A stretch of 30,101 nucleotides of DNA from a virus. Where the stretch lies: positions 1-30,101 of IMG/VR virus record IMGVR_UViG_3300025301_000073, one strand, 5' to 3'. A program made the translations under genes and the position numbers. Positions 17,158 through 17,920 of the stretch are shown piece after piece (the stretch's first letter is position 1; each line of letters begins with the position of its first letter). The notes beneath the pieces were generated by a model. It was not told the origin of the DNA, did no database searches, and saw nothing but the letters and a program-made list of their open reading frames with translations.

Positions 17158-17327
17158 TATTCCGCCTCCTGTATCTCGGCCAGGATGCCGACCAGGTCCA
17201 GAGGGTCGATGCCCAACCGCTCGGCCATGTCCCGATGGTTCTGGCAGATGGTCAGGTTGTCGCAATCGCATTCCACCTCCAGCCATTCCCAGGACTCCAG
17301 CATCCGGTCTCGGATCGTGTTGTCCAT
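17157..17327 (-). CDS. Small acidic helical protein behind leader R1
   Basis: This is 56 aa: MDNTIRDRMLESWEWLEVEC, then DCDNLTICQNHRDMAERLGI and an acidic C-terminus (LVGILAEIQEAE). Cys and His residues (ECDCDN...CQNH) could bind a metal ion. The ATG (17325-17327) follows AGGAGG by seven bases inside the conserved leader R1, and its stop overlaps the next gene as TAATG. Function unknown. Confidence 0.68.
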   Translation of the reverse strand: MDNTIRDRMLESWEWLEVECDCDNLTICQNHRDMAERLGIDPLDLVGILAEIQEAE

Positions 17328-17403
17328 CTCGTTTCCTCCTCCTTGTTGGCCGGACTTGCCACCGGCTCTTGTGGGTTACGGCCCCGAAGGGGCTGGCTCA
17401 CCG
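17325..17403 (-). ncRNA. Structured intercistronic leader R1
   Basis: This 79-base element lies between the 59 aa and 56 aa genes, ends in the ribosome site AGGAGGAAACGAG and the ATG, and is nearly identical to R2. The minus-strand RNA can form a GCCCC-TTC-GGGGC hairpin and then a GCCGG...CCGGC hairpin with the loop TGGCAAGT. The second stem sits just before the ribosome site. I do not recognise the class. Confidence 0.55.
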
Positions 17404-17415
17404 TGGCTACTTGCT

Positions 17416-17595
17416 TTACATACTGCCGATCAGGTCGCCATCCTCGTCGCGGATTACTATGAAGCTCCAGCCGGTGCCCTTGGAGTCGTGGATGGCCTCG
17501 TAGGTCCAGTCGGAGTCGCCAGCCTGGAGAATCCGGGCCTGGGCTTCAGCGTCCTCGGGGCTGTACAGGGTGGCGGGGCGGTTGTTGATCATCAT
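17416..17595 (-). CDS. Small protein behind leader R2
   Basis: This is 59 aa: MMINNRPATLYSPEDAEAQA, then RILQAGDSDWTYEAIHD and GTGWSFIVIRDEDGDLIGSM. The second half reads like a two-strand beta unit. AGGAGG lies seven bases upstream within leader R2. The gene is separated from the next one by leader R1. No family recognised. A DNA mimic or host-binding protein would be consistent with its small, acidic nature. Confidence 0.65.
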   Translation of the reverse strand: MMINNRPATLYSPEDAEAQARILQAGDSDWTYEAIHDSKGTGWSFIVIRDEDGDLIGSM

Positions 17596-17671
17596 CTCGT
17601 TTCCTCCTCCTATATTTGGCCGGACTTGCCACCGGCCTTGCGGGTTACGGCCCCGAAGGGCTGGCTCACCG
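17593..17671 (-). ncRNA. Structured intercistronic leader R2
   Basis: This is the second 79-base copy, between the 42 aa and 59 aa genes. The two hairpins are kept. The first is GCCC-TTCG-GGGC, and the second has a full GGCCGG/CCGGCC stem where R1 has one pair fewer. The loop TGGCAAGT and the words GTGAGCCAG and CCGTAACCC are unchanged, while the linker before AGGAGG differs (AAATAT against AACA). Loops conserved and linkers variable suggest an RNA element rather than a coding repeat. Confidence 0.55.
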
Positions 17672-17673
17672 GG

Positions 17674-17802
17674 TTAATTTTGGCCTATACGGTAGAAGCA
17701 CCAGATACAGAGGCAGGGGACCGGCATATGATTCGGGATAGGGCCGGTGCAACGTGGGCAGGTCCTCGTGGTTTCCTTGGTGGTCCGCTTGCTGTTATTC
17801 AT
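17674..17802 (-). CDS. Small zinc-ribbon protein, first gene of the P1 unit
   Basis: This 42 aa protein starts MNNSKRTTKETTRTCPRCTG and continues VPCLCIWCFYRIGQN, giving a basic N-terminus and a Cys pattern CPRC...CLC.WC suited to zinc. It is the first gene after promoter P1. Its ribosome site AGGAGG and the bases before the ATG (ATCTCGTTTCCTCCTC on the plus strand) match those of leaders R1 and R2. Confidence 0.68.
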   Translation of the reverse strand: MNNSKRTTKETTRTCPRCTGPIPNHMPVPCLCIWCFYRIGQN

Positions 17803-17834
17803 CTCGTTTCCTCCTCTCTTGCTTGACTATGTAT

Positions 17835-17864
17835 ATTATAAGCGACGCCGCTATAAACTGTCAA
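17835..17864 (-). promoter_or_regulatory. Promoter P1, consensus sigma70-type
   Basis: Minus-strand -35 TTGACA (17864-17859) and -10 TATAAT (17840-17835) are both perfect and 18 bp apart. The spacer region contains an imperfect inverted repeat, TTATAGCG and CGCTTATAA, overlapping the -10, a plausible operator. Transcription should start near 17828 and run through the seven small genes to the terminator at 15931-15963. Confidence 0.88.
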
Positions 17865-17920
17865 GCGTTTATTATACCGATTCGCAAAACTCGTTGATAT
17901 TGGATGACGCCAAATAGCAA

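Follow-up and report, generated by a model that had tools for sequence, protein, structure and literature searches.

The window, which is the whole stretch of 30,101 bp analysed here, is a virus record carrying portal, terminase, head protease and tape-measure genes, and is therefore taken to come from a tailed phage. On its minus strand, a sigma-70-like promoter is followed by three small ORFs of 42, 59 and 56 aa, and two elements of 79 nt each, R2 (17671..17593) and R1 (17403..17325), lie on the same strand in front of the second and the third of these (Table 1). R1 and R2 match at 91 % (E 6.8e-26) and both terminate in AGGAGGAAACGAGATG, a leader of 16 nt made up of the ribosome site (SD) and the start of the ORF that follows, 59 aa behind R2 and 56 aa behind R1. 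With up to three mismatches allowed, three matches to this leader were found in the window, all of them exact (chance mean 0.38). The stretch of promoter and leader is common to five other contigs (91–97 % identity). A protein family search gave zero matches for all three small window ORFs. By eye, the 42 aa ORF contains a CPRC...CLCIWC pattern that resembles a small zinc ribbon.

Table 1. Features of the leftward operon, by position in the window (all on the minus strand)
Feature	Position	Strand	Remarks
Sigma-70-like promoter TTGACA-18-TATAAT	17835..17864	-	12/12 consensus bases; 0.3 promoter-like sites expected in region
SD leader AGGAGGAAACGAGATG before the 42 aa first ORF	17800..17815	-	No ribozyme in front
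First small ORF, 42 aa	17674..17802	-	No family matches
R2, putative type-P5 twister ribozyme	17618..17670	-	RF02684 full-length 1-58, 26.8 bits (gathering 37.6); own descriptor 17670-17618
R2 T1a GCC	17663..17665	-	Pairs with T1b GGC at 17630..17628
R2 predicted cleavage site, U (17647) / A (17646) of UAA	17646..17647	-	Alignment to RF02684
R2 T2a GC	17640..17641	-	Pairs with GU at 17625..17624
R2 T1b GGC, in P4 loop	17628..17630	-	T1 conservation in relatives
SD leader AGGAGGAAACGAGATG behind R2, start of 59 aa ORF	17593..17608	-	
Second small ORF, 59 aa, between R2 and R1	17416..17595	-	No family matches
R1, putative type-P5 twister ribozyme	17349..17402	-	RF02684 full-length 1-58, 25.9 bits (below gathering); own descriptor 17402-17349
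R1 T1a GCC	17395..17397	-	Pairs with T1b GGC at 17360..17358
R1 predicted cleavage site, U (17378) / A (17377) of UAA	17377..17378	-	Alignment to RF02684
R1 T2a AC	17371..17372	-	Pairs with GU at 17355..17354
R1 T1b GGC, in P4 loop	17358..17360	-	T1 conservation in relatives
SD leader AGGAGGAAACGAGATG behind R1, start of 56 aa ORF	17325..17340	-	
Third small ORF, 56 aa	17157..17327	-	No family matches; relatives behind ribozymes of L026 and L017

The sequence-only reading had described two nearly identical leaders of equal length that run into the ribosome site of a small gene, an unrelated one in each case, with two hairpins and a TGGCAAGT loop in both, one stem extended by a pair, and the end of the leader repeated before the first gene. 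All of this is borne out, the extended stem being P4, with five pairs in R1 and six in R2. Its word 'duplicated' fits less well: R1 is nearer to the copies of other contigs (one edit from those in L005, L006, L007, L008 and L013) than to R2 (three edits), and a recent tandem duplication is therefore rejected. R2 is two edits from the copies in the same five contigs, and likewise from that in L026.

By family, R1 and R2 are almost certainly type-P5 twister ribozymes (RF02684). Both align to positions 1–58 of the 58 in the model (E 0.0016 for R2 and 0.0028 for R1). A match to a known Rfam class, which the sequence-only reading had named as a refutation, was thus found for both copies, although only below the gathering score; a scan of the window at gathering level gave zero matches to Rfam, this cut-off being a reporting threshold and not a structural feature. 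Relatives of the same architecture exceed the RF02684 cut-off, and the low score of the window copies is probably due to their GCC:GGC T1 pairing and GGU P2 strand, which are unlike the model consensus. The Rfam scans of the window ruled out a tRNA or another Rfam class, the other matches (an HDV-like match on the plus strand with 18.5 bits, and two snoRNA matches) being at chance level (E 3.3 to 7.5). The original report of the twister ribozyme is said to be that of Roth in 2014.

The likeness to twister type P5 (clan CL00120) extends to the element order, the core UAA, the CAAG loop, P1, P2 and P4, and the T1 and T2 pseudoknots. The order is the P2 5′ strand, GA, T1a, the P1 hairpin, UAA, the P2 3′ strand, T2a, and the P4 hairpin with T1b/T2b in its loop. 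R2 is read as P2 GGU, GA, T1a GCC, P1 GCCC-UUCG-GGGC, UAA, P2 CC(C) and T2a GC, followed by P4 as GGCCGG-U-GGC(T1b)-AAG-U-CCGGCC; R1 departs from this in P1 (five pairs), in T2a (AC) and in its shorter P4. P1, P2 and P4, the conserved UAA and AAG, and the T1 pseudoknot, which joins the strand behind GA to the P4 loop, are present in both copies, as is T2 (AC:GU in R1, GC:GU in R2), and the invariant or nearly invariant columns of 54 aligned members are all kept in both. P1 is short in the window copies (4–5 bp) and P2 is weak, GGU/CCC giving two pairs and a mismatch, or three pairs in a shifted register. RNAfold, which cannot model pseudoknots, gave the expected hairpins for R2 and a different minimum for R1. 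Cleavage is predicted in both copies 5′ of the first A of UAA, the position at which twisters cut.

The window copies differ from the RF02684 consensus line (GAGgG / UCcCAAG) in having GCC:GGC as T1, and from its P2 (GCA/UGC) in having GGU/CC; in addition, an A / CG interruption separates P1 from T1/UAA. Copies with the GCC:GGC variant are missed by the current Rfam cut-off. Over all copies, those with T1a GCC (23/23) or GTC (7/7) fit best with this interruption, which in window R2 falls at 17662 and 17649..17648. In most other T1 classes P1 adjoins directly, and the GCC and GTC copies may be a structural sub-type.

Relatives were collected in three pattern scans of viral contigs, which gave overlapping sets of 12, 23 and 53 stretches (L004–L056). 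The search patterns fixed GGTGA, GTAA(A/C)CC and GGTNN(A/C)AAGNCCG, with the third base of T1b limited to A or C, so these bases are conserved by construction. A fold descriptor identified 131 copies in 565,552 bp of viral stretches, with 86 distinct cores among them, but had no match in shuffled sequence (2.83 Mb); 52 of the 53 loci have a match, L046 being without one, and L010, L015 and the window contain identical copies. Above the RF02684 cut-off, there were three matches in L004 when one set of 12 loci was scanned and 41 in another 12 related loci. When 43 of the 54 whole records were scanned (42 loci and the window), all 43 matched RF02684 at E 0.05 or better, as expected for records found by twister patterns, and 25 exceeded the cut-off; none of 14 control genomes had a match over it. 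The copies commonly stand in rows, with 11 matches in the L033 record, 10 in that of L055 and 9 in that of L050, the weakest in the L033 and L055 records having E 0.008–0.035 and one of the ten in L055 being weak and on the other strand.

Both pseudoknots are conserved as pairings in these relatives, and the absence of pairing conservation that the sequence-only reading had named as a second refutation is contradicted. Among the 85–86 unique cores, which are related by descent, a kinship still present in the shuffles for T1 and T2, T1 is fully paired in 85 of 85 distinct members when the descriptor is rerun without its T1 demand, against a mean of 20.2 and a maximum of 34 of 85 when the 3′ strands are dealt among the members. 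Thirteen T1 pair types occur in the descriptor set that requires T1, and both strands vary at each of the three positions. T2 is paired in 79 of 86 (shuffles: mean 41.4, maximum 54), at a register that was picked after the counts had been seen (16 of 86 at a neighbouring one) and was also read by hand off R1 and R2; its types are GC:GC (40), CC:GG (22), AC:GU (14) and GC:GU (3). Pairs were counted by script on the descriptor registers, the MAFFT alignment shifting the 5′ end by one column in some rows. The idea that neighbours in a row avoid equal T1 pairs was rejected, since in L016, judged by eye, T1 is the same in three of the eight pairs of neighbours.

Searches of named phages by blastn, with the region or with single ribozymes, gave nothing or short chance-level matches only, so at blastn sensitivity there is no named phage with the element. 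Against named phages, tblastn of the window terminase and of one L016 protein gave distant matches only, and one Manatee Spring phage record, the terminase of which is distantly similar, neither contains a twister above the cut-off nor matches the descriptor. A scan of genome contigs gave 27 loci, two of which pass the descriptor and one of which is convincing (L068, 51.1 bits); L080 passes yet looks unconvincing, so the descriptor is not error-free.

The copies are placed between genes. For 93 copies, distinct with their flanks, the stop of the upstream ORF lies -8 to +20 nt from P2 in 75 and an SD with start codon lies within 40 nt of P4 in 83; both are in range in 68 of the 93, whereas only 2.6 % of 1,860 positions drawn at random from the same strands have both. 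No upstream stop was recognised within this distance for 18 copies, and no SD with start for 10, which is partly due to cut contigs and crude ORF rules. Relative to P2, stops are most often at -5, -1, +1 or 0; at -5, the commonest position, the TGA falls inside the GGTGA of the ribozyme. All copies are on the same strand in 25 of 25 sources with two or more descriptor matches. The first ORF after the promoter has the SD leader without a ribozyme in the window, L005, L006, L008, L013 and L017, as would be expected if the job of the ribozyme is cutting between genes. Genes behind ribozymes include those for an amidoligase, a glutamine amidotransferase, a DNA methyltransferase and a SNF2-type helicase. 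In L016 (7396-9888), the amidoligase and glutamine amidotransferase genes, with a 75 aa ORF between them, each stand behind a twister of their own.

These junctions were compared between six phages (the window, L005, L006, L008, L013 and L017), the comparison covering ribozyme-bearing junctions. The promoter and leader are 88–100 % identical, the 120 nt before the promoter 75–91 %, and the ribozyme 87–100 %. Between promoter and ribozyme, the ORFs are 38–55 % identical in 14 of 15 pairs; behind the ribozyme they are 41–56 % identical in 15 of 15, where shuffled ORFs have 35–54 %. The exception is the pair L006 and L013, with first ORFs that are 100 % identical and second ORFs that are not alike. 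L005 and L018 also have a first ORF in common (88.5 % over 227 nt) with different downstream sequence, and the relatives of the third window ORF are directly behind a ribozyme in L026 and L017, beside other neighbours. Since promoter, ribozyme and SD are conserved while the ORFs differ, the joints persist and the genes change. On these comparisons, the elements are plausibly fixed joints of exchangeable gene slots rather than the outcome of a fresh duplication; homologous recombination at the joints, or ordinary turnover with selection on the joints, would explain the exchange. In most of the six phages one conserved promoter and leader (window 17800-17870) feeds a different small ORF, and accessory genes, perhaps with a role in counter-defence, may be slotted in at this locus.

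Of the suggestions in the sequence-only reading, a structured cis-acting leader and a processing site are supported, the element being a predicted self-cleaving motif between genes. A mobile or amplified element is supported in part: many phages have it in front of unrelated genes, but there it forms a fixed joint, with the ORFs on either side exchanged; the translation switch and the protein-binding leader that it also suggested gained no direct support.

A further feature is found in 14 contigs (L004, L016, L019, L020, L023, L027, L032, L036, L041, L045, L047, L048, L051 and L056). In many copies of this group, the strand directly before the SD complements the 5′ end predicted from cleavage (AAACCCC/GGGGUUU and AACCCG/CGGGUU, or, with altered P2, AAACGCC/GGCGUUU and ACACCC/GGGUGU). 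At least five pairs are formed in 30 of 41 distinct copies of the group, which was chosen after the feature had been seen, against a mean of 21.1 and a maximum of 26 of 41 when the downstream strands were dealt (500 trials), and in 3 of 52 copies outside the group. P2 and the strand before the SD vary in step, GGCGUUU occurring with CGU/ACG and GGGUGU with UGU/ACA (for example at L016:9918-9971). In RNAfold, 9 of 9 of the L016 3′ products form a 5′-proximal hairpin enclosing P4 (-14.6 to -22.1 kcal/mol over the full product), six being paired from the first base and the others having 2–3 free bases. In the window, the complementary strand before the SD was sought and is absent; the 3′ product of R2 keeps P4 only, and in that of R1 P4 is inside a weak closure of 2 bp (RNAfold). 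In the group of relatives, although not in the window, the strand before the SD could therefore cap the 5′ end of the new mRNA, and it could also compete with P2 before cleavage.

From the observed sequence, fold conservation, placement, strand and ORF exchange, we infer cleavage, the resulting RNA ends and an effect on expression. An mRNA-cutting role is likely for R1 and R2, which would quite probably act as type-P5 twisters in the sense strand of a leftward phage operon, cutting it between genes into single-gene mRNAs. Transcription from the promoter would yield three small genes with two self-cleaving joints. As the polycistronic RNA is made, each ribozyme would fold (P1, P2, P4, T1 and T2) and cut itself between the U and the A of UAA, about 50 nt before the next start codon. 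The first RNA would carry the 42 aa ORF and finish with the P1 hairpin, bearing a 2′,3′-cyclic phosphate; the second would carry the 59 aa ORF and the third the 56 aa ORF with what follows, both with a 5′-OH end and the P4 hairpin just before the SD. The first two products would be roughly 180 nt (assuming a start near 17828) and 269 nt long, and the remainder longer. Twister cleavage generates 2′,3′-cyclic-phosphate ends and 5′-OH starts, 5′-OH ends are poor substrates for 5′-monophosphate-dependent decay, and cutting would make each ORF independent of its neighbours. The likely purpose would be an mRNA for each small gene, its stability and translation independent of the genes beside it; with an independent mRNA per gene, ORFs would be swappable between fixed promoter, ribozyme and SD joints. 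It is also possible, and is put forward tentatively, that the twister is the standard joint of a plug-in operon of the form promoter-SD-(ORF)-twister-SD-(ORF), from which every inserted ORF is released as a separate mRNA, and that in the one group the cut triggers a programmed strand exchange, the new 5′ end (AAACCCC and its variants) coming to leave P2 and pair with GGGGUUU before the SD, capping the 5′-OH and leaving the SD exposed.

The position of the upstream stop within a few nucleotides of P2 would also let a terminating ribosome cover the 5′ strand, and in the group of relatives the strand before the SD can displace P2. Active twisters might then be a regulated switch, in which an upstream-terminating ribosome or competition by the downstream strand decides folding and cutting reports upstream translation. 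However, the window copies lack the competing strand, and tight phage gene packing alone would place the stop there; such a switch is considered unlikely. That tandem ribozymes excise single-gene RNAs with 5′-OH and 2′,3′-cyclic-phosphate ends, which are then ligated into circular mRNAs, is very improbable. The 59 aa ORF does lie between two same-sense ribozymes with matching T1 (GCC:GGC), the ends of which could rebuild a nicked ribozyme, but neighbours in rows, as in L016, often have different T1 pairs and would not reassemble, and the available passages of Perreault (2011; PMC3088659) report that no circular or spliced products were detected for phage hammerheads. The score of the window copies below the Rfam cut-off would suit an element that has lost its catalytic activity and persists as a leader with a protein-binding or stabilising function. 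Both copies nevertheless keep the (nearly) invariant columns of the 54 members, T1 covaries in 85 of 85, and a simple hairpin leader needs no catalytic fold with two pseudoknots, so there is very little chance that catalysis has been lost. Cutting between genes is thus the preferred reading for R1 and R2.

The RNase III sites between the early genes of T7 divide a polycistronic phage RNA into mRNAs of gene size that end in hairpins, for which a host enzyme is needed; here, in contrast, the RNA would cut itself. As described in passages of Perreault (2011; PMC3088659), several hammerheads close together flank single prophage genes, with cleavage in vitro and, for one set, in Escherichia coli, and long phage RNAs are proposed to be cut into operon- or gene-length mRNAs. 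Insofar as these passages allow comparison, the arrangement is alike in that several self-cleaving ribozymes flank single genes of a phage operon, and differs in the twister class, in often having one ribozyme per junction with fixed stop and SD spacing, in joints common to exchanged ORFs, and in a subgroup in which a 5′ hairpin may form after cleavage. The available text of a 2023 paper (PMC10085705) describes an enrichment of bacterial hammerheads and twisters close to genes of Mu-like phages and to other ribozymes, and gives the reason as unknown; the available passages of a review of genomic self-cleaving RNAs (PMC7761336) name no phage twister rows. Searches of an open-licence library, outside which most subscription journals fall, gave no paper on phage operons with rows of twisters or on a 5′ hairpin that forms after cleavage.

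At first sight the window leader looks like the SAS/ESAS of cluster K mycobacteriophages, a repeated leader directly before many unrelated gene starts, of which, in the passages available, the SAS is the 13-mer GGGATAGGAGCCC and about half have a 17 bp inverted repeat upstream (PMC3203893). Unlike the SAS, the window leader is AGGAGGAAACGAGATG, and identity with SAS/ESAS is rejected, as positions 30000-52797 of TM4, which hold five exact SAS, match neither RF02684 above its cut-off nor the descriptor. The ribozyme class is a known one, and phage operons cut by hammerheads have a precedent in print, which the twister rows and the proposed gene slots and capping hairpin extend. Together, the rows of copies at gene junctions, the tight stop and SD spacing, the ORF exchange and a subgroup hairpin that needs release of P2 give a concrete, testable role, proposed to be protein-free mRNA segmentation with built-in 5′-end protection.

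Among the genome contigs, the twister in L068 (1829-1886) is a type-P5 match above the Rfam cut-off directly before an SD, on a contig binned as a Microgenomates bacterium and possibly from a phage of that group.
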